From positions 1 through 64,000 of the forward strand of contig JAJZSW010000004.1 of assembly GCA_021849505.1 (NCBI GenBank): a stretch of 64,000 nt of DNA, given 5' to 3'. Of this stretch, positions 6,879 to 18,324 are shown in pieces (the first letter of the stretch is position 1; every line of letters begins with the position of its first letter). Below the pieces are notes generated by a model that was not told where the DNA came from, made no database searches, and saw nothing but the letters and a program-made list of their open reading frames with translations. Position numbers and translations under genes: made by a program. This stretch comes from Pseudomonadota bacterium. Its GTDB lineage: Bacteria; Pseudomonadota; Gammaproteobacteria; Burkholderiales; Rhodocyclaceae.

Positions 6879-8201
6879 TCAGGCTTCCTCTCCGGCTTGC
6901 GCGCGAATTTCGTGCTTCTTCATCTTTTCCCAGAGGTTTTTTCGGCTGATGCCCAGTTGCGCGGCGGTTTCCGCGATGCGTCCCTGGTTGGCGGCAAGCG
7001 CCTCGACGATGCGCCGGCGCTCGCTGGCGGCGACGTGATCGGCGAGCGTCGGGGCGGGCATCGCCTGCGCAGCGGCACAGTCGCCGCACAGCGTCGCAGC
7101 GGTCAGCACCGGCGCGGGCGAGAGGATGCAGCCGCGTTCGAGGCAATGGCGCAGCTCGCGCACGTTGCCGGGCCAGTCGGCGGCCAGCATCGCGTCCTCG
7201 GCACTGGCGTCCAGGCTGCGTTTCGCCCCATCCCCCGAAAACTCGGCGAGGAAGCGGTCGGACAGCCAGAGGATGTCCTCGCGGCGCTCCCGCAAGGGCG
7301 GAATGTCGATCTGCACGACATGGATGCGGTAATACAGATCTTCGCGAAAGCGGCCCTCCTCCACCATCTTCTTCAGGTCGCGATGCGTGGCGCAGACGAG
7401 GCGGATATTGACCGGAATCGGCTTTTCCCCGCCGACGCGCACGATGGCGCGTTCCTGGATCGCGCGCAGCAGCTTGACTTGCATCGGCAGCGACATGTCG
7501 CCGATTTCGTCGAGGAACAGCGTGCCACCATCCGCCTGCTCGAAGCAGCCCTTGTGCTCCTTCACCGCGCCGGTGAAGGCGCCGCGTGCATGACCGAAGA
7601 GTTCGGCCTCCATCAGGGATTCGCTCACCGCCCCGCAGTTCACGGCCACGAAAGGCTGCTTGCCGGACGGATCGGCCTGCGCATGCAGGGCACGGGCGAC
7701 CACCTCCTTGCCGACGCCCGACTCGCCGGTAATCAGTACCATGCGTGCATTCGCGGCCAGGCGGGGCAGCATCGCCTCGATCTGGCGCATCCTGCTGGAG
7801 ATGCCCAATTGCGGATTGTCATCTGTACCAGTACGTTCGCGTGTACTCAGGCTGCGCACCTTGTCGAGCAGTTTCGGCACGTCGAGCGGCTTGGTCAGGT
7901 AGTCCTCTGCGCCCAGCTTCAGCAGGCGCACCGCCTGGTCGATCGCGCCATGGCCGGTGATGAACAGGAAGGGCGGCAAGGGCTGGCCGGATTGCCGCAA
8001 TTCGACGAACAGCTCCTCACCGGAGATATCCGGCAGGCGGATGTCGCTGATGGCCAGCGCATAGTGCTTGTGCAGCAGGCCCGGCACCGCAAGGCGGCCG
8101 CGCTGGAACCAGTCGCAGGCATAGCCTTCCATGTCCAGCCGCTCGACGAGCGCCTCGCCCATGATCGGGTCGTCCTCGATCAGGCAGATCTGCGGTTTCA
8201 T
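6879..8201 (-). CDS. Sigma-54-dependent two-component response regulator, NtrC family (ArxR-like position)
   Basis: REC domain; [14 protein letters not shown] motif in [14 protein letters not shown]-terminal Fis-type HTH. Confidence 0.92.
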
Positions 8202-9703
8202 GCTGCGTTCCCCTGTTTCAGTGCCGTCTCGCCAAGACTGACTTTCGCTGCGGCGGCATCATCAGGCGGCAACGGCAGGCTGACAACGAAACGAATCTCG
8301 CCATCGCGGCACTCGACCGCAATGCTGCCGTTCAGCTGCTTGACGGTTTGATAGGTGACCCACAGTCCAAGCCCATGCCCGCCTTCGCGGCCGGACACGA
8401 AAGGCTCGAACAGGTGGGCAAGAATTTCCTGCGGCGGCGGCTCGCCTTCATTGGCGACCACCAGACTGAACTCGTCGCTTGTTCTGCTTGCCATCACGCG
8501 GATGCGCCCCTCCTGCGGTGTCGCCGCGATGGCGTTCAGCAGCAGGTTGATGAGCACCTGCCGGACGAAGCTCGCCGGCAAGGGCAGGCTTTCCGGCAAG
8601 TCGATTTCGAATTCGAGGTGTATGAGTTTCTTGGCGACCTGGGGTTCGATCAGCGTGCGCACATCCTCGAAATCCTGCCGGCCAAGGTCGCGCGCCTGCA
8701 CGCGCGCCTGCACGAGCAACGCCCCGACCGTCTCGGTGATCTGCTGCAAGCCGCGTTCGAGCAGGGCCACGGTGCGCGCCGTGGCGGCATCCATCGTCCC
8801 GCGCTGCTTCAGGGTATCGATGGCCATCAGCATCCCGCCGAGCGGGTTGTTGACCTCGTGCGCGATACCGGCGGCCAGCCGGCCCACGGCGGCCAGCCGC
8901 TCGGACTGCATGACCTCCTTTTCGAGCGCGGTTTTTTCGCGAATTTCGGCGGCGGCCCGGCGATAGGCCGTGAAAAGTTCCCCGAGTTCATCATGGTAGG
9001 CATACAACTCTGGACCCAGTTCCTCGGGCGCACCCGTGACGATCTCGCTCATGCCGTGTGCCAGCTGCACCAGCGGTTCGGTCATGCGCCGACCCCAGTA
9101 CCAGTTGAGCGGCAGCAGGATTGCCAGCACCAGGGCGCACGTGCCGGCGGCACCCAGGGCAAAACCGAAGAAGCGCGGCAGGAAGACATCCTTGCTGTGC
9201 GTGATCACCAGGGTACCGAGATGCTCGCCTTCTTCGGCCAGCGGTATCGAGACATGCAGCCGGTCGGATCCCGGGAACTCATGTGCTCCGGTGGCCTCCG
9301 GGTTCTTGATGCGCAGAGCTTCGGCCAACTCCGGGAAGTCCTCTCCCAGGCTGGCCAGATCGGCAAGGATGGGCATCGCGAGGGGCTGCGATGAAACGAG
9401 CACCCGCAGATTCCTGTCGACGACGAAGATCGCCGCCGGGTCCATGGCCTGCCTGCTGCCTTCGTCATGAAAAGGCGCGCGAATCAGTTCATAAGCGCGC
9501 CAGATATCGTCGTGCAGCAGCGTCGTAAACAGGGTTTTGGCGAGGGTAAACCCAAGACTTTCGGAACTGATGACGAGATCGTGCTTGAGATCGTCGAAGG
9601 CCCGCAGCATGAGCGCGCCGGAGACCGCCAGCGTTGCGGCGACGATCAGGCTGCTGCCCCACAGCGGAATCTTGTGACGCAAGCTGAGGTCGAAGAAACG
9701 CAT
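8198..9703 (-). CDS. Membrane sensor histidine kinase (ArxS-like position)
   Basis: Two TM segments with periplasmic loop, GIAHEVNNPLGGML H-box, N/G boxes; 4-bp overlap with response regulator. Confidence 0.88.
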   Translation of the reverse strand: MRFFDLSLRHKIPLWGSSLIVAATLAVSGALMLRAFDDLKHDLVISSESLGFTLAKTLFTTLLHDDIWRAYELIRAPFHDEGSRQAMDPAAIFVVDRNLRVLVSSQPLAMPILADLASLGEDFPELAEALRIKNPEATGAHEFPGSDRLHVSIPLAEEGEHLGTLVITHSKDVFLPRFFGFALGAAGTCALVLAILLPLNWYWGRRMTEPLVQLAHGMSEIVTGAPEELGPELYAYHDELGELFTAYRRAAAEIREKTALEKEVMQSERLAAVGRLAAGIAHEVNNPLGGMLMAIDTLKQRGTMDAATARTVALLERGLQQITETVGALLVQARVQARDLGRQDFEDVRTLIEPQVAKKLIHLEFEIDLPESLPLPASFVRQVLINLLLNAIAATPQEGRIRVMASRTSDEFSLVVANEGEPPPQEILAHLFEPFVSGREGGHGLGLWVTYQTVKQLNGSIAVECRDGEIRFVVSLPLPPDDAAAAKVSLGETALKQGNAA

Positions 9704-9711
9704 CGGGCCGG

Positions 9712-10602
9712 TCAGTATTCGCCGAAGGCGCGCATCATGTCGACCACGCCGGCGTATAGCCGCAGCTCGCCGACAGTGAAACCGTCGAGGTTGAGCTGCT
9801 CAAGAATGCGGCGGCCAGCGACGTCATTGGACATGTCGAGCAGCACGCGCTGCATCGTCGCAAAGTCCTCCGCCGACACGGAACGATGGGCAGCGAAAGG
9901 CGGAAAGCCATATTCCGGCGAAGCGCCGATGATGCGCGTGCGCGCGGTGAGTTCGGGTTTGATGCGCGTGAGCGTGTCCCACACGTAACTGTCCATCGAG
10001 GCGCCCTCGGCCATGCCGCTGGCCACGGCCTCGACCGCCTTGCGGTGGGAAAACGTGAAGAAGGTTTTGCGAAAGAAGGTTTGGGGGTTCTCCCCAAGCT
10101 GCCGTACCCAATAACGCGGCACGAGATAGCCGGTGTTCGAATACGGGTCGGAATAGGCGAAGGCGGCGCCTTTGAGATCGGCCATGCCCTGCGCTTTGGC
10201 ATTGTCCGCATGCACCAGCAGATAGGCCCGGTAATAGGGGCGACCCTTGTTGACCGGTACCACCAGCAACCGCACCAGATCCTTCAGATACAAAAACGGG
10301 TAATCGCACAGCCAGGCGAATTCGAGGCGGGACTGGTGCAATAAATCCATCGTTTCGCGGTAACTGTTGCGCGGGTGAAATTCAATGGTGACGCCGAGTT
10401 TCGCTTCCAGATAGCGGCGCCATTCCGCCATCAATGCATGCCGGTCATGCACGAAGGCGGGGGTCAGGCCGATCCGGATGATGCGTTGCGCGCCGACCGT
10501 GCTGGCGAGCGCACCCGCCGACCCCAGCGCGATAGCCGCCGCCCCCGCTTGCAGCAGACGCCGCCGCTGCCGATTACCGTTTGGTAACTCGATGGATCCC
10601 AT
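9712..10602 (-). CDS. PhnD/AioX-like periplasmic phosphate/phosphonate/oxyanion-binding protein
   Basis: RRRLLQAGAAAIALGSAG Tat-like leader; LGVTIEFHPRNSYRETMDLLHQSRLEFAWLCDYPFLYL; FAYSDPYSNTGYLVPRYWV typical of PhnD-like SBPs. Confidence 0.85.
   Translation of the reverse strand: MGSIELPNGNRQRRRLLQAGAAAIALGSAGALASTVGAQRIIRIGLTPAFVHDRHALMAEWRRYLEAKLGVTIEFHPRNSYRETMDLLHQSRLEFAWLCDYPFLYLKDLVRLLVVPVNKGRPYYRAYLLVHADNAKAQGMADLKGAAFAYSDPYSNTGYLVPRYWVRQLGENPQTFFRKTFFTFSHRKAVEAVASGMAEGASMDSYVWDTLTRIKPELTARTRIIGASPEYGFPPFAAHRSVSAEDFATMQRVLLDMSNDVAGRRILEQLNLDGFTVGELRLYAGVVDMMRAFGEY
10573..10588. promoter_or_regulatory. Candidate upstream activator site ATTACC-GTTT-GGTAAC
   Basis: Near-perfect dyad; same motif at 10617-10632 and 17692-17707. 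Confidence 0.6.
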
Positions 10603-10616
10603 TCCAAGCACCCCCC

Positions 10617-10632
10617 GTTACTGATTGGTAAC
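10617..10632. promoter_or_regulatory. Candidate upstream activator site GTTACT-GATT-GGTAAC
   Basis: Dyad 44 bp from the previous copy, about 100 bp upstream of a sigma-54 promoter. Confidence 0.62.
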
Positions 10633-10728: not shown

Positions 10729-10745
10729 CTGGCACGCTCCCTGCA
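10729..10745 (+). promoter_or_regulatory. Sigma-54 promoter CTGGCACGCTCCCTGCA
   Basis: GG/GC elements with exactly 10 bp between; matches YTGGCACGN4TTGCW at nearly all positions. Confidence 0.82.
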
Positions 10746-10832
10746 CTCATGCATGGCAATCGAAGCAGCCACACCCAAGGCTTTATGGGAAGCGTGGTTC
10801 AGGAAATCGCTCAACTCTCGGGGGAATCAAGC

Positions 10833-11834
10833 GTGTTCAGATCCTGGCGAAAAACCACGGCGGCGGTTGCCGCATTCGTTGCGTGCGTCTGGAGTTTCCA
10901 GGCACACGCCGGAGATGCCGTTGCGGCGGACCCCGAAGTCGTCGAGAAAAACCGCAAGGCCAACGAGGCCTGCTTTGCCTGCCACAGCGAATTCGGGTTC
11001 AAGAATCCGCCGCGTACCGACATGGATATGAAGAAGCTCGCGGAAACCCTGTACGACCCCAAGGTGTTCGCCGGTTCCAACCATGGCACGATGGACTGCC
11101 GTCAGTGTCATGGCCAGGGCTACAACGACTATCCGCACTCTGAAACCGGCAAGAGCGAAACCAGTCCCTGCTCGGAATGCCATGCCACCAAAGTCGCCCG
11201 CCTGGAACCCCAGTATGACGCCTCGGTGCATGCGCGACTGGAAAGCGTCAAGGCGAAATTCACCTGCGCGACCTGCCACGATCCGCACATTGACCTCGGT
11301 GCAACCCTGCTCAAGGATCCGCTCAAGATCGCCGTGCAGGACAACAAGGCCTGTCTCGAATGCCACGACTCGGACGAGGTCTTCGCGAAATACGCCGCGG
11401 ACGACGATAAAACGCCGGGCATCAAGAAGAAGCGGCCCAATATCGACACCATCCACGAGTGGCTGCCGAACACCAAGCGGCACTGGCAGACGGTGCGCTG
11501 CGTCGAATGCCACACTCCCGAGGTGAAAGCCAACCGTCCGCTTTCGCATGAAATCCTCGACAAGGAAAAAGCCGAGAAGAACTGCCTGAGCTGCCATTCC
11601 GCCAATAGTTCCCTGAAGACCCGGCTCTACCGCCACCTGGTGAAAGACGAGCAGGACAGGCTGGGTTTTACCAACAGCATCATCCTCTCCAGCTCCTACG
11701 TGATCGGCGCCACCCGCCATCCGCTGCTCGACAAGATCGTCATCGGCCTTGTCGCACTGACCCTCGGCGGCGTGTTGTTGCACGGCGCCATCCGCATCGT
11801 CTTCGCCATCCGTCGCAAGGGGAAAAAGCAATGA
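10833..11834 (+). CDS. Membrane-anchored heptaheme c-type cytochrome (GTG start inferred from the sigma-54 TSS)
   Basis: Seven CXXCH motifs (CFACH, CRQCH, CSECH, CATCH, CLECH, CVECH, CLSCH), N-terminal signal, C-terminal TM helix. Confidence 0.88.
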   Translation: MFRSWRKTTAAVAAFVACVWSFQAHAGDAVAADPEVVEKNRKANEACFACHSEFGFKNPPRTDMDMKKLAETLYDPKVFAGSNHGTMDCRQCHGQGYNDYPHSETGKSETSPCSECHATKVARLEPQYDASVHARLESVKAKFTCATCHDPHIDLGATLLKDPLKIAVQDNKACLECHDSDEVFAKYAADDDKTPGIKKKRPNIDTIHEWLPNTKRHWQTVRCVECHTPEVKANRPLSHEILDKEKAEKNCLSCHSANSSLKTRLYRHLVKDEQDRLGFTNSIILSSSYVIGATRHPLLDKIVIGLVALTLGGVLLHGAIRIVFAIRRKGKKQ

Positions 11835-12448
11835 GCGATCGCATCTATCTTCTGCCTCTCTGGATCCGCCTCTGGCACTGGACCAACGCGCTGCTGATCA
11901 TCACATTGGCCGTCACCGGCATCAGCCTTCACTTCGCCGATCCCAAACTGCCGCTCGTCGAATTCGCGCTCGCCGCACGCATCCACGACATCGCCGGGCT
12001 CGCCCTGGTGGCGCTGTATGTCCTGTTCGTCATCGCCAATATCGTCACCGGCAACTGGTGGCAATACGTGCCCAAGCCGCCCGGCGTGCTGGAGCGCTGC
12101 GTCAAGCAAGGTCGGTGGTACATGGTTGGCATCTTCAAGGGCGAACCGCACCCGTATCGCGTCTCCGAAGAGGCCAACTTCAATGCGATGCAGGCCATCG
12201 CCTACTGGGTGATCATGTACGTTGTCATGCCCGTCATGCTGATCACGGGACTGTTGTTCCTCTATCCCGAATTCGCGCCCGACCGCTTTTTCGGCTTCGA
12301 CGGCCTGCTGCCGGTCGCGATCCTTCACTACCTCACCGGGGCGGTCATCATCATGTTCATGATCGCGCACATCTATCTCGGCACCACCGGCAAAACAGCC
12401 ACAAGCATGTTCAAGACCATGTTCACCGGCTGGTACGAGCAACATTGA
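11831..12448 (+). CDS. Cytochrome b subunit (formate dehydrogenase gamma/thiosulfate reductase cyt b type)
   Basis: LPLWIRLWHWTNALLIITLAVTGI, four TM helices, ILHYLTGAVIIMFMIAHIYL. Confidence 0.83.
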   Translation: MSDRIYLLPLWIRLWHWTNALLIITLAVTGISLHFADPKLPLVEFALAARIHDIAGLALVALYVLFVIANIVTGNWWQYVPKPPGVLERCVKQGRWYMVGIFKGEPHPYRVSEEANFNAMQAIAYWVIMYVVMPVMLITGLLFLYPEFAPDRFFGFDGLLPVAILHYLTGAVIIMFMIAHIYLGTTGKTATSMFKTMFTGWYEQH

Positions 12449-12488
12449 CCACAGTTTTCACTCGCCAGTTTTCCATAGGAGAAACACC

Positions 12489-13556
12489 ATGAACTTCGTG
12501 ACAAATGCCATCGCCCTCGCCGTCATCGCCACCTTTGCCAGCAGCAGCGCTCTGGCCCAGGCCCAAGAAAAGCCCAAGGCGCAAAAACCGGTGCCGGTCC
12601 CCGCGCTCAAGGCGGATGCCGCCCCGAAGGTCGATGGCTCCGCTGATGATGCGGTCTGGAAATCCGCCGCGGTCGTCAAGCTCGAAGCCGTCAAGGGCGT
12701 GAACTTCAAGGACAACAAGGGCAACACCAACGGGACGGTGCAGCTCGCCTATACCGCCGACACCCTCTACATGCTGATTACCTATGACGATCCGACCTTC
12801 TCCGTCAAGCACAGTCCCTACGTCAAGAAGGCTGACGGCAAGTGGGAAATGGTCAAGGACCCGGGCGACAAGGGCAGCGACGACAACAAGTTCCACGGCG
12901 ACAAGGTGTCGGTGATGTGGAACATCAACGACAGCATCTTCGGCTTCACCGACAAGTTCTCCTGTACCTCGGTCTGCCATGGCGGCGAAAAAGGCAAGGC
13001 TTATGGGAACAAATACAGCGAGGAGGCCGAAGAGACTGCCGACCTGTGGATCATGCGCTATTCCCAGGGCGGCGCACTGGGCTATGGCGACGACAAGTAT
13101 GTGGACAACACGAAGTTCGACCCGGTCAAGTCCCCGGATGCCGGCCGCAAGGCCGATCCGAGCAGCGGCGGTGGCTATGAAAAGATCAAGCTGGTCAACG
13201 GCAAGCCGGAATTCATGGGCAAGGACGCCAAGCCCGCCAACAAGGGCGGTACGTACTGGGTCAAGGCGGAAGACAAGGTGGCCTTCGACGACAGCAAGTT
13301 CAAGGCAGGCGACGAAGTCGCTTCTGTGATCGTCGCACCGTTCAAGGGCGACCGCGGCGATGTTTCGGTCGGCGCCAAGTGGGATAAAGGCAAATGGACC
13401 GTCGAGTTCGCCCGCAAGCTGAAAACCGGCTCCAAGCATGACATCGACCTCAGCGACCTGGGCAAGACCTACGCCTTCGGCATCGGCTTCTTTGACAACG
13501 CCGAGATGCGCCATGCCTATGTGCAGGCACCGCTGCACCTGCAATTCCAGAAGTAA
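12489..13556 (+). CDS. Periplasmic EB_dh (ethylbenzene dehydrogenase-type heme-binding) domain protein with CX3CH motif
   Basis: Signal peptide; VDGSADDAVWKSA...VQLAYTADTLYMLITYDDPT...DKVSVMWNIND; FSCTSVCHGG. Confidence 0.78.
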   Translation: MNFVTNAIALAVIATFASSSALAQAQEKPKAQKPVPVPALKADAAPKVDGSADDAVWKSAAVVKLEAVKGVNFKDNKGNTNGTVQLAYTADTLYMLITYDDPTFSVKHSPYVKKADGKWEMVKDPGDKGSDDNKFHGDKVSVMWNINDSIFGFTDKFSCTSVCHGGEKGKAYGNKYSEEAEETADLWIMRYSQGGALGYGDDKYVDNTKFDPVKSPDAGRKADPSSGGGYEKIKLVNGKPEFMGKDAKPANKGGTYWVKAEDKVAFDDSKFKAGDEVASVIVAPFKGDRGDVSVGAKWDKGKWTVEFARKLKTGSKHDIDLSDLGKTYAFGIGFFDNAEMRHAYVQAPLHLQFQK

Positions 13557-13580
13557 TCGACACACCGAAAAGGAGTCGTC

Positions 13581-16139
13581 ATGAAACTGACCAGACGTGA
13601 ATTCCTCATGGGGTCATCGGCAACTATCGGCCTGCTGATGGTCGAAGGCGTCCTTGCCGCCACCCCGCGCAATCCGAAATCCAGCGCCATCAAGATCCGC
13701 AAGGCCGGCCCTGCCGCACCCTCCAAGGGCGAATGGGTGCCTAGCACCTGTCAAGGCTGCACGGCCTGGTGCGCCGTGGAAATATTCGTGCAGGACAATC
13801 GCGCGGTGAAAGTGCGCGGCAATCAGCTCTCCAAGGCGAACAACGGCTATTGCTGTCCCCGCGGCCACCTGATTCCGCAGCAAACCTACGATCCGGACCG
13901 CATCAAGGTGCCGATGAAGCGCACCAACCCCGTGAAGGGACGCGGCGTCGACCCGCAGTTCGTGCCGATCAGCTGGGACGAGGCGCTTGATCTCGTCGCC
14001 GACAAGATGATCGAACTGCGCAAGAACGACGAGCCGCACAAGTTCGCCTACATCCGCGGCCGCTACTCCTCCACCGCGACGCAGATCCTCTACGGTGCGC
14101 TGCCGGCCATCTACGGCACCCCGAATTACTTCTCCCACAGCGCGATCTGCGCCGAGGCGGAGAAGATGGGGCCCGGCCTGACCCAGGGCTTCTTCGGCTA
14201 CCGCGACTACGACCTGGCGCGAACCAGGTGCCTGGTGACCTGGGGCTGCGATCCGGTTTCCTCGAACCGCATGGTGCCGGCAACCATCAAGCACCTCGGC
14301 GACATCATCGCGCGCGGCAGCCTGATCGCCGTCGACCCGCGCATGTCCACCTCGGCGGCGAAGGCCCATGAGTGGCTGCCGATCAAGCCGGGTACCGATG
14401 GCGCGCTAGCCAGCGCCATGGCGCATGTGCTGCTGGTCGAAGGGCTGTGGAACAGGGAATTCGTCGGCGACTTCAAGGACGGCAAGAACCTCTTTGTCGC
14501 CGGCGCGGCGGTGGATGAAGCCGCCTTCGCCGAAAAGGAAACCCATGGCCTGGTGAAGTGGTGGAACATCGAACTCAAGGACAAGACCCCAGCCTGGGCC
14601 GAGCAGGAGACCCTGATTCCGGCGGCCCAGACGCTGCGCGTCGCGCGCATGATGGCCAAGCATGCGCCCCAGACCGCCGTCTGGATGGGGCCGGGCGCGG
14701 CCATGTATCCGCGCGGCACCTATGCGGCGATGGCGGTGCATGCGCTCAACGGCCTGCTCGGCTCTATCGATGTCGAGGGCGGCGTGTTGCAGACCACCAG
14801 CCCGCCGCTCGGCGCCTACCCCAAGCGCGACGCCTACCTGGACGAGGTCGCCAAGAAGCACGGCAAGGGCAAGAAGGTCGACGGCCGCGGCGCGAAGGAC
14901 ATGCCGGCGATGATGAATGCCAGGCCGGGCAGCGGCGTCGTCACCAACAACATCGCCAACGGCATGCTCAAGGATCCGGGCGCGGTCAAGGTGCTGCTGA
15001 GTTCCTGGTCGAACTTCAACTTTTCCTGCACCGACCCGGCCCGCTGGGACAAGGCGCTGGCGCAACTGCCCTTCTTCGCGCACATGGTCACCAACGCCTC
15101 GGAGATGACACAGTTCGCCGACGTGGTACTGCCCTCGACCATGAATGCCAGCGAAGGGCTCTCGGTGATTTCCAACAATGGTCTGACGCATGGCTTCGCC
15201 TCGATCCAGCAGCCGGCCGGCAAGCGCCTGTGGGACGTCAAGCAGGAAGAGACCGAGGTCTGCTGGCTGCTCGCGGCCAAGCTCAAGGCCAGGGGCTTCC
15301 CGAACCTCTACGACTACTTCGCCAACGAGTTCAAGGATCCGGAAACCGGCAAGACGCCGACCAACGAGATGGAGTTCTCCGAGGTGCTGGCCAAGATCTC
15401 CAGCGCACCGCTGTGGATGCCCAAGGAAGCGCTCAAGGGCGACAAGCTCGAAGGCTGGGCGGATTACCGCAAGAAGGGCATTTACAACACCCAGCAATAC
15501 AGCTTCAAGAAAGGCTGGGGCGGCAAGTTCAACACCGCGACCAAGAAGTTCGAGTTCTACAGCGAGACGCTCAAGAAGGGCTTGACCGAACATGCCGCGA
15601 AGTACCAGACCACGATCGACGAGGTGCTGAAGGTTTCGGGCTATCTCGCCCAGGGCGAACTCGCCTTCGTGCCGCACTACGAAGCACCGAAGCGGCATGG
15701 CAGCTACCAGGACTACCCCTTCGAGTTCGTCGATTACAAGTCGCGTCTCAATCGCGAGGGGCGCTCGGCGAACTTGCCCTGGTACCAGGAATTCAAGAAG
15801 ATGGACACCGGCGATGTATCCTGGGGCGACGTGCTCAAGATGAACCCGGCCGACGGTGCGAAGCTGGGACTCAAGACCGGCGACACGGTGAAAATCACTT
15901 CGCCGGCGGGATCGATCGTTACCCAGCTCAGGCTGTGGGAGGGCATCCGTCCGGGCACCGTCACCAAGTGCTATGGCCAGGGCCACTGGGCCTACGGCCG
16001 TGTCGCGGCCGGGGACTATGCGAAGGCCCTGCCGCGTGGCGGCAACAACAACGAGATCCTCGTCGATGACTACGACCGACTGAGCGGCTCCACCGCGCGC
16101 AATGGCGGCTTCACCGGCGTCCGGATCGAAAAGGCCTGA
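13581..16139 (+). CDS. Tat-exported molybdopterin oxidoreductase catalytic subunit, ArrA/ArxA-like (candidate respiratory arsenate reductase)
   Basis: RREFLMGSSATIG Tat signal; CQGCTAWCAVEIFVQDNRAVKVRGN (4Fe-4S); YIRGRYSS; FSHSAICAEAEKMGPG; 852 aa. Confidence 0.82.
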   Translation: MKLTRREFLMGSSATIGLLMVEGVLAATPRNPKSSAIKIRKAGPAAPSKGEWVPSTCQGCTAWCAVEIFVQDNRAVKVRGNQLSKANNGYCCPRGHLIPQQTYDPDRIKVPMKRTNPVKGRGVDPQFVPISWDEALDLVADKMIELRKNDEPHKFAYIRGRYSSTATQILYGALPAIYGTPNYFSHSAICAEAEKMGPGLTQGFFGYRDYDLARTRCLVTWGCDPVSSNRMVPATIKHLGDIIARGSLIAVDPRMSTSAAKAHEWLPIKPGTDGALASAMAHVLLVEGLWNREFVGDFKDGKNLFVAGAAVDEAAFAEKETHGLVKWWNIELKDKTPAWAEQETLIPAAQTLRVARMMAKHAPQTAVWMGPGAAMYPRGTYAAMAVHALNGLLGSIDVEGGVLQTTSPPLGAYPKRDAYLDEVAKKHGKGKKVDGRGAKDMPAMMNARPGSGVVTNNIANGMLKDPGAVKVLLSSWSNFNFSCTDPARWDKALAQLPFFAHMVTNASEMTQFADVVLPSTMNASEGLSVISNNGLTHGFASIQQPAGKRLWDVKQEETEVCWLLAAKLKARGFPNLYDYFANEFKDPETGKTPTNEMEFSEVLAKISSAPLWMPKEALKGDKLEGWADYRKKGIYNTQQYSFKKGWGGKFNTATKKFEFYSETLKKGLTEHAAKYQTTIDEVLKVSGYLAQGELAFVPHYEAPKRHGSYQDYPFEFVDYKSRLNREGRSANLPWYQEFKKMDTGDVSWGDVLKMNPADGAKLGLKTGDTVKITSPAGSIVTQLRLWEGIRPGTVTKCYGQGHWAYGRVAAGDYAKALPRGGNNNEILVDDYDRLSGSTARNGGFTGVRIEKA

Positions 16140-16170
16140 GCCCGCAACGCACGAATCAAGGAGATAGATA

Positions 16171-16941
16171 ATGCCCAAATATGGAATGGTCATCGACCTG
16201 CAAAAGTGCGTCGGCTGCGGAGCCTGCGCCCTCGCCTGCAAGGCGGAAAACAACACCCGGGATCGCGGCGACAACAACGCACACAACTGGGCCGACTTCA
16301 TCAGCACGACCGAAGGCAAGTTCCCTAACACAACCCAGATCGTGCTGCCGGTGCTGTGCAATCATTGCGACGTACCGGCCTGCATCCCGAAGTGTCCGGT
16401 CGTGCCGTCTGCGATATTCAAGACGCCGGACGGCTTCGTGCTGATCGACCACGAAACCTGCACTGGCTGCAAGGCCTGCCAGCAGTCCTGCCCGTACAGT
16501 ACCGAAGCGCTGGACGACCGCAGCCTCGCTGGCGAAACCTACAGCGTGATCAGCTTCAACAACAAACGCAAACCAGCACAACCGCGCTGGGAAGACAATA
16601 CCGCGATGATTCCCGGCTGCACCTCTTCCGGCGCCGAGGTGGCGAAAGCGGCGGGCGCCCCGCTGCCGGCCATGAATGGCTATGAATCCACTGAAACCCA
16701 GCCGGTACGCGCGCGCGGCGTGTTTGAAAAGTGTACCTTCTGCTATCACCGCGTCACCCACGGCCTGCTGCCGGCCTGCGTGGATGTGTGCCCCTCCAAG
16801 GCGCGCATTTTCGGCGATTTGAAGAACCCCAAGTCGGAAATCGCCCAGATCGTCAAGAAGCAGAAATACTTCCGCCTGCAGGAGGACAAAGGCACCAAAC
16901 CGAACGTGTACTACATCAACAAGTACAGCGCGCGGGCCTGA
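16171..16941 (+). CDS. 4Fe-4S ferredoxin-type electron transfer subunit (ArrB/TtrB/DmsB-like)
   Basis: CVGCGACALACKAENNT, CNHCDVPACIPKCP, CTGCKACQQSCPY, CTFCYHRVTHGLLPACVDVCPSKA. Confidence 0.92.
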   Translation: MPKYGMVIDLQKCVGCGACALACKAENNTRDRGDNNAHNWADFISTTEGKFPNTTQIVLPVLCNHCDVPACIPKCPVVPSAIFKTPDGFVLIDHETCTGCKACQQSCPYSTEALDDRSLAGETYSVISFNNKRKPAQPRWEDNTAMIPGCTSSGAEVAKAAGAPLPAMNGYESTETQPVRARGVFEKCTFCYHRVTHGLLPACVDVCPSKARIFGDLKNPKSEIAQIVKKQKYFRLQEDKGTKPNVYYINKYSARA

Positions 16942-17000
16942 ACGCACGCGCATTACAATCACGAGGCAGGGGCGACCCTGCCTCTTTTTTGGGACATGCC

Positions 17001-17627
17001 ATGACTGAAACGGAAATGCGTGAAAAGCTTGCGCGCGAAGACCTGTGCCGCCTGCTTGCCGCCTGCTACTACGAACCGGAACCCGCCTTCGCGGCAGAAG
17101 GCTTGTTCGACAATCTGCTCGCCGCCGCGCGGCAAGTCGATGAAGCCTTCGTCCCGCACGCGCAGGCAATGGGCGAGGCATTCCGCGCCACGGCAGCGCA
17201 AGCGCTGCTGCTCGATTACACCCGGCTGTTCCTCGGCCCGATGGATATCCTCGCCAAGCCTTACGGATCGGTCTGGCTCGACCAGGAAAAGACCCTGATG
17301 AACGACAGCACGATGGCCTTGCTCGATCTCCACAAGGAAGCAGGGTTCGAGATGGACGAGGAATTTCGGGAACTGCCCGACCATGTCGCCGCGGAACTCG
17401 AATTTCTCTACCTGCTGATCTTCCGCGAGAACGAAGCGCTACGCGCCGGAGATACGACCAAGCACGAACAGGCCCGCGTTCTCAAGCGGCGCTTTCTGTC
17501 GCAGCACCTCGGCCGCTGGATCGGTCCGTTCGCGGCCGCCATGCACGGCAATGCGCAAACCGACTTCTACCGCCAGTTGGCCGACCTGACAGAGAAGGTC
17601 GTCAAGCAGGAAGCCGCGCGGAGATAA
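17001..17627 (+). CDS. TorD/DmsD-family molybdoenzyme chaperone
   Basis: All-helical; LLDYTRLFLGP...PYGSVWLDQEKTLM...LPDHVAAELEFLYLL. Confidence 0.87.
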   Translation: MTETEMREKLAREDLCRLLAACYYEPEPAFAAEGLFDNLLAAARQVDEAFVPHAQAMGEAFRATAAQALLLDYTRLFLGPMDILAKPYGSVWLDQEKTLMNDSTMALLDLHKEAGFEMDEEFRELPDHVAAELEFLYLLIFRENEALRAGDTTKHEQARVLKRRFLSQHLGRWIGPFAAAMHGNAQTDFYRQLADLTEKVVKQEAARR

Positions 17628-17646
17628 GCGATTTGCCGCCCGCTGC

Positions 17647-17670
17647 AAAGTCGGCGCTGGCAGGACGCCA
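17647..17670 (+). repeat. Dispersed 24-bp repeat, copy A
   Basis: aaagtcggcgctggcaggacgcca. Confidence 0.85.
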
Positions 17671-17691
17671 CCCGACTCAGCAGCATAGCCG

Positions 17692-17707
17692 GTCACCATT
17701 CGGTAAC
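17692..17707. promoter_or_regulatory. Candidate upstream activator site GTCACC-ATTC-GGTAAC
   Basis: Same 16-bp dyad as at 10573 and 10617; another candidate (GTTACC-GTTA-TGCAAC) at 17734. Confidence 0.6.
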
Positions 17708-17733
17708 TTTCTCTCTGGCTGATAAATGGAGAT

Positions 17734-17749
17734 GTTACCGTTATGCAAC
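17734..17749. promoter_or_regulatory. Degenerate second activator site GTTACC-GTTA-TGCAAC
   Basis: Perfect left half-site, weaker right half; 42 bp from preceding copy. Confidence 0.42.
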
Positions 17750-17879
17750 TCAGTTATTCAGCATATCAGCATATGTACATAAACTTTTCAAACATGTGGT
17801 TAGCTTCTTTTCTATATAAATAAGGCACTTATTGCGCAGCCTCCTTCATTGAATTCGAAGACACTCCCTCGACAGCCAC

Positions 17880-17896
17880 CTGGCACGCCACGTGCA
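17880..17896 (+). promoter_or_regulatory. Sigma-54 promoter CTGGCACGCCACGTGCA
   Basis: GG and GC separated by exactly 10 bp; directly upstream of a small ORF with strong SD. Confidence 0.8.
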
Positions 17897-17939
17897 TGGG
17901 TCATTGATACAACAAGCACCCATAACCGAGGAGGTCAAC

Positions 17940-18098
17940 ATGAATCAAACATCAACCGGAAGTTGCCAGCAGCCGGAAGAATCCGGAGTGGTCAAAACAT
18001 GCAAGATCTTTTGCGGCTCATGCATCATGTGTGCACTGGCCGTGCCGTTCGTGCTGATCGTACTTTTCGTGGTGGCCAGATTTTTTGGCTATATCTGA
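17940..18098 (+). CDS. 52-aa Cys-rich single-TM peptide, undescribed
   Basis: MNQTSTGSCQQPEESGVVKTCKIFCGSCIMCALAVPFVLIVLFVVARFFGYI; SD GAGGAGG 5-6 nt before ATG; sigma-54 promoter about 43 bp upstream. Confidence 0.72.
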   Translation: MNQTSTGSCQQPEESGVVKTCKIFCGSCIMCALAVPFVLIVLFVVARFFGYI

Positions 18099-18324
18099 AC
18101 AAGCGCGTGCGGCGCAACGGCACCTGAGCGCATTCCATCGTCCTGCTTCGATCATCCGCAGCAACAACCCATGCCCTCGATTTGCACTGGAGGGCTTGGC
18201 ACGTCGCCATAGGAGCAATACACGCAACAAACGTCCGGCAGGGGCTTGAACAGTACGTCGCTACCCTGGCACGCGTAGAACCAGTGTCAGCACTGACGGG
18301 ACGTCACTTCAGGCCACGTAGCCT

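Follow-up and report, generated by a model that had tools for sequence, protein, structure and literature searches.

A small membrane peptide gene of an unnamed family, its apparently inherited sigma-54 promoter and its probable place in an AioX/ArxX-like X-S-R regulon

A 52-residue, single-pass membrane peptide is encoded on the plus strand at 17940..18098 of the window, by which we mean the whole 64-kb stretch of DNA analysed here. Here we report that this peptide is an uncatalogued small protein of an unnamed family, that its gene is nearly certainly real and not a chance ORF, and that it very probably belongs to the regulon of an AioX/ArxX-like X-S-R sensor module encoded in the same window. 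As an explanation of the whole we favour, though at somewhat less than an even chance, a bitopic inner-membrane accessory protein of this arsenic-type X-S-R redox regulon.

The first-pass annotation, made from the sequence alone, had proposed an unannotated 52-aa gene at this site, and had named a lack of conservation of its reading frame in relatives as one result that would refute the proposal. The translation of the frame is as it had been given, the strong Shine-Dalgarno sequence GAGGAGG is present on the plus strand at 17928..17934, 5 nt before the ATG, and the frame is kept in relatives. Full-length homologues were found in six other genomes, all of the same bacterial family: a search of relatives first gave the congeners G002 (44% identity) and G017 (39%), a profile search led to G079 and G199, both in another genus, and the profile also recovered G341 and G212, which represent a third genus. 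Start codons are aligned and lengths fall between 50 and 54 aa across the seven homologues, window included. The dN/dS ratios (Nei-Gojobori) were about 0.21 for G002/G017, 0.20 for G079/G199 and 0.49 for G341/G212, and between the window and G017 silent changes dominate the codon divergence (dN 0.50, dS 2.57, the latter near saturation). By these codon comparisons the frame is under purifying selection. A GTG start at 17892, which would give a 68-aa ORF, was rejected, as it lies upstream of the predicted transcription start site and receives no support from the homologues.

The scan for the peptide within the family covered 399 sampled genomes. Beyond the family-level group, scans of sampled genomes across the order and the class gave no member that convinced us; where weak matches (E 1e-4 to 0.01) were inspected in all six frames, the frames proved broken or unrelated, and tblastn of the peptide against plasmids gave no match. 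From these searches the peptide family looks confined to one GTDB family, within which its occurrence is sporadic. The earlier statement that no family could be recognised also held good. Pfam gave nothing for three members of the peptide family up to E 10, and nothing was matched in PHROGs, PADLOC or PDB sequences. NCBIfam gave no match for the other homologues tested, and for the window peptide only the AimP pheromone family (NF033802) at 13.1 bits and E=0.081, which we rejected against the curated cut-off of 35 bits.

The first-pass annotation had further placed the gene under a near-consensus sigma-54 promoter of its own, with a predicted start site about 33 nt before the ATG and with activator dyads shared with a neighbouring Mo-enzyme operon. 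A motif scan finds the predicted sigma-54 site, TGGCACG-CCAC-GTGCA with one mismatch, on the plus strand at 17881..17896, where it aligns with an operon promoter of G017; transcription is predicted to start at about 17906, giving a leader of about 34 nt. Sites with a single mismatch number two in the 64-kb window against 0.93 expected, a number which alone is not above chance, so that what counts is their placement below the dyads: both sit in the two intergenic regions that carry dyads. The dyad GTTACC-N4-GGTAAC, with up to two mismatches, occurs four times in 64 kb against 0.46 expected, and none of 100 shuffles reached four. Two copies precede the ArrA-like Mo operon (10573..10632, starting at 10573 and 10617, 44 bp apart) and two precede the peptide, namely GTCACC-ATTC-GGTAAC at 17692..17707 and, 42 bp from it, GTTACC-GTTA-TGCAAC at 17734..17749 (both unstranded). 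The ArrA-like operon has its own predicted sigma-54 promoter by motif scan on the plus strand at 10730..10745. The dyads are common to the two transcription units and, at up to two mismatches, are the only ones in the window.

The same dyad is found near X-S-R/Mo operons of seven relatives (G002, G017, G064, G163, G284, G297 and G010), and in G009 it lies upstream of X; in G004, where X-S-R stands beside an arx-type cluster, no such dyad was detected at two mismatches. Positions recorded in relatives were 7761-8133 and 15309-15366 in L184, 12623-12672 in L189, 8917-9283 in L190, 9180-9237 in L191, 3006-3383 in L192, 5631-5688 in L105 and 7391-7448 in L186. Since GTTACC-N4-GGTAAC recurs at X-S-R/Mo operons of relatives, it is very likely the operator of the ArxR/AioR-like regulator family, as judged from sequence. 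The peptide thus has both this predicted operator and a predicted sigma-54 promoter upstream of it.

Divergent from the Mo operon, three minus-strand genes encode the X-S-R module: a periplasmic oxyanion sensor of the AioX/ArxX/ArrX subfamily (9712..10611; family search and AioX alignment), an ArxS/AioS-like sensor histidine kinase (8198..9703) and an ArxR/AioR-like NtrC-type sigma-54 response regulator (6879..8201), the last two assigned by family search. The best PDB match of the X sensor is AioX (E=2.3e-58). Tyr88, Cys106, Tyr131, Ser161, Ser163, His192 and Asp210 are given as arsenite-pocket residues of AioX in the sections of PMC5908839 consulted, and the window X sensor keeps them all in the alignment; by these residues alone, a sensor of arsenite cannot be told from one of arsenate. 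An NtrC-type sigma-54 regulator and a histidine kinase are encoded with X, the arrangement by which AioXSR/ArxXSR modules are recognised. As far as the sections at hand of PMC5908839 and PMC6549141 go, the module resembles AioXSR, ArxXSR and ArrXSR in its PhnD-like X, its histidine kinase, its NtrC-type regulator and its divergence from a Mo operon. It differs from them in its neighbour, an ArrA-like operon that includes EB_dh, b561 and multiheme c subunits, and in the presence of a second, similarly built promoter with one small peptide gene behind it; such a peptide is not described in those sections of the arx literature (PMC5908839, PMC6549141). Given the AioX/ArxX-like character of this divergent module, the regulon to which the peptide very probably belongs is of the same type. 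The X-S-R gene order was seen in G002, G017, G004, G009 and G010. Six members of the genus keep an X related to that of the window (58-74% identity), of which just two carry the peptide.

The neighbouring operon (10749..17627, plus strand; family and PDB matches) encodes a multiheme c-type cytochrome (10749-11834), a cytochrome b561 (11831-12448), an EB_dh domain protein (12489-13556), an ArrA-like Mo subunit (13581-16139), an ArrB-like subunit (16171-16941) and a TorD-like protein (17001-17627). Among structures and NCBIfam models the Mo subunit is closest to ArrA of the respiratory arsenate reductase ArrAB: among solved structures ArrA (6cz7) scores highest at 911 bits, and the top NCBIfam model, also ArrA (NF041714), gives 1034.6 bits, under the curated cut-off of 1600 bits. 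Unlike ArrAB, however, the operon includes EB_dh, b561 and multiheme c subunits. Membrane parts were predicted in the b561 and in a C-terminal TM segment of the multiheme cytochrome. Relatives at 60-85% identity are widespread in other bacteria, among them Betaproteobacteria, Geobacter-type bacteria and Nitrospirae, and suggest a distinct enzyme clade.

A specific tie of the peptide to this Mo operon, which had been part of the original proposal, was not borne out. Profile and tblastn scans of about 80 fetched loci with the ArrA-like enzyme, including the suggested tBLASTn search against loci with the same Mo operon, found no copy of the peptide in any of them. Since none of these loci carries it, the link between peptide and operon is regulatory and positional rather than one of co-inheritance. 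In relatives the peptide either ends a different operon or stands alone. In G002 and G017 the X-S-R module adjoins an arx-type cluster (Mo subunit, FeS, NrfD-type, TorD), in which the alignment of the Mo subunit is interrupted. A ferredoxin-type gene follows the arx-type cluster of G017, and its placement resembles the position of arxB2 in strain M52, as given in the part of PMC6549141 consulted. Next to arx lies a second operon of Mo, FeS, c-type (read in G002), TorD, FccA, FccB and peptide genes, with the peptide as the last gene, 40-60 bp after fccB, in both genomes; in G017 it is the sole ORF of this Mo/FccAB operon with a predicted TM segment. The operon combines relatives of FccAB (flavocytochrome c sulfide dehydrogenase) with a Mo-bisPGD protein of the PhsA/ArrA superfamily; none of the operon's subunits is related in sequence to the peptide, and the window is without this operon. 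Most members of the family that have the Mo/FccAB operon have no detectable peptide; in G074 the operon was inspected and no peptide follows fccB. In G079 a multiheme/b-type cytochrome gene precedes the peptide, and the copies of G341 and G212 stand alone among unrelated neighbours, without dyads and without X-S-R alongside within the fetched DNA. In G064, G163, G284 and G297 (L189, L190, L191 and L192), the Mo-FeS-TorD part of this second operon is directly divergent from AioX-like X-S-R, and this Mo enzyme is apparently uncharacterised and metalloid- or sulfur-linked; the family scan gave no peptide match in these four, as far as the 399 sampled genomes go.

The description of the promoter as the peptide's own needed amending. 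In G017, the promoter region of the Mo-FeS-c-TorD-FccAB-peptide operon shares homology with positions 17646..17915 (plus strand) of the window, which lie ahead of the peptide gene. Alignment of these 270 bp with the sequence upstream of the G017 operon scored 236, against a shuffle maximum of 54. In a search of 19 congeneric genomes only the G017 operon promoter matched strongly (77% over 193 bp, E=4.8e-34). In both genomes the aligned stretch begins immediately after the stop codon of the gene before it and takes in the two dyads as well as the sigma-54 site. The many short matches in the same search correspond to a dispersed palindrome at the left end of the region. This REP-like palindrome (GCTGCAAAGTCGG...CCGACTCAGCAGC) lies at 17642-17684, directly after the TorD-like gene; short copies occur in nearly all 19 congeneric genomes, and several matches to its core occur in the window. 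Neither a trace of FccAB nor the body of the Mo/FccAB operon was found within the 64-kb window, and the Mo subunit of that operon was not found in the window's 94%-complete genome at E <= 1e-150. Thus, the sigma-54 site stands as proposed, but by descent it would be the promoter of the Mo/FccAB operon, whose body is absent here; that the peptide promoter was inherited from this operon is well supported by the alignment. Most simply read, the window lineage has lost the operon body that once separated promoter from peptide, although the body may instead have been inserted in the lineage of G002 and G017.

In the peptide itself, about 20 polar N-terminal residues are followed by one strong TM segment, which spans residues 28-46 and has a mean hydropathy of 3.04. 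AF2 predicts nothing but one helix (residues 17-48), with moderate confidence: pLDDT is 67 overall and 88 over residues 31-50, and pTM is 0.35. NapE/TorE-type proteins are small bitopic proteins of about 50-60 aa with one TM helix, located with a periplasmic Mo enzyme. The peptide is like them in size, in its single TM helix and in its location with a Mo enzyme, but differs in a CxxC at the membrane edge and in its regulon, and NapE/TorE was rejected as an assignment, the family profiles in Pfam and NCBIfam being unmatched. A lipoprotein reading of 'GSC' was also rejected by inspection, as the Cys comes after about 27 mostly polar residues and the hydrophobic stretch follows it. Of the five cysteines of the window peptide, three are spaced C-x2-C-x2-C at the membrane edge, giving both CxxC pairs (C25-C28 and C28-C31). 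All seven homologues have one pair or the other, C28 being the sole invariant cysteine in their alignment; C21 is unique to the window and C9 is absent from G079 and G199. The C-x3-C-x2-C-x2-C cluster to which the first-pass annotation had drawn attention is therefore present, but is particular to the window.

We infer that the peptide crosses the membrane once, carries a thiol pair at the membrane edge and acts as an accessory or anchor protein. The X protein would sense an arsenic (or antimony-like) oxyanion and the kinase would phosphorylate the NtrC-type regulator, which would bind the paired dyads and fire the sigma-54 promoter, so that peptide and Mo enzyme would appear together. Originally the peptide may have been the sole membrane-spanning part of an otherwise soluble Mo/FccAB operon, an anchor or docking subunit whose CxxC would make a redox contact or a metal-thiolate one; the window lineage has retained the peptide, probably in the service of the neighbouring complex or of some other oxidoreductase in the periplasm. 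For an accessory role we counted frame conservation, the dyads, the AioX-like sensor, the last-gene position, promoter homology and the helix prediction, along with its being the sole TM ORF of the G017 operon and the cytochrome gene upstream of the G079 copy. Against it stand the many Mo/FccAB operons with no detectable peptide and the orphan copies of G341 and G212 without dyads, and against the need for an anchor, the window operon already has membrane subunits of its own. Doubtful as a more specific form is that the peptide founds a single-pass CxxC family that couples X-S-R controlled periplasmic oxidoreductases of metalloids or sulfur (Mo/FccAB) to the membrane, a modular part that stayed under the ancestral promoter when the intervening enzyme genes disappeared and now serves the ArrA-like complex.

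Other explanations share part of this evidence. A thiol peptide, co-induced by the arsenic sensor, could bind As(III)/Sb(III) at the membrane surface, either protectively or as a local sink. In its favour are the AioX-like module that would control it, the cysteines of the window peptide and the CxxC in all seven homologues. Because most of the cysteines vary, there is less to be said for the earlier idea that a four-Cys cluster binds As(III), although the CxxC at the membrane edge is universal among the seven, and two homologues lack dyads and arsenic-type neighbours; we consider such binding unlikely. It is distinctly unlikely that the peptide is a relic of a deleted operon, of which promoter and last gene remain while the product has no present role. 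The promoter homology to G017, the missing FccAB and the missing Mo-subunit match would fit a relic, yet frame, Shine-Dalgarno sequence, dyads and sigma-54 site are all intact, and the divergence from G017 is mostly silent (with dS near saturation). A regulatory membrane peptide that exerts feedback on a membrane enzyme of the regulon, be it the sensor kinase or another one, would agree with the shared regulon, the small bitopic form and the separability from the enzyme operon. It is made improbable by the genus members that keep a related X, only two of six having the peptide, and by the orphan copies, which are not beside X-S-R in the fetched DNA. Small hydrophobic ORFs easily arise by chance and two homologues are orphans, but a spurious ORF, or a toxic or lytic peptide outside the regulon, was already disfavoured and is very improbable in view of seven homologues with conserved start, length and CxxC, dN/dS below 1, an end-of-operon position in two genomes and no PADLOC or PHROGs match.

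The peptide would add an uncatalogued small protein to an arsenic-oxyanion-type regulon. The likely operator, GTTACC-N4-GGTAAC, mostly comes as a pair some 42 bp apart with a sigma-54 site downstream; it is defined across several related genomes and can be used for finding further members of the regulon. A small terminal gene that outlives its operon under the operon's promoter would also be a clean natural test of a function of the peptide independent of the enzyme. Just downstream of the peptide, at about 18150-18300 on the minus strand, lies an apparently degraded remnant with the motif 'CCVYCSYGDVP', a seemingly intact relative of which is present at L144:18200-18415.
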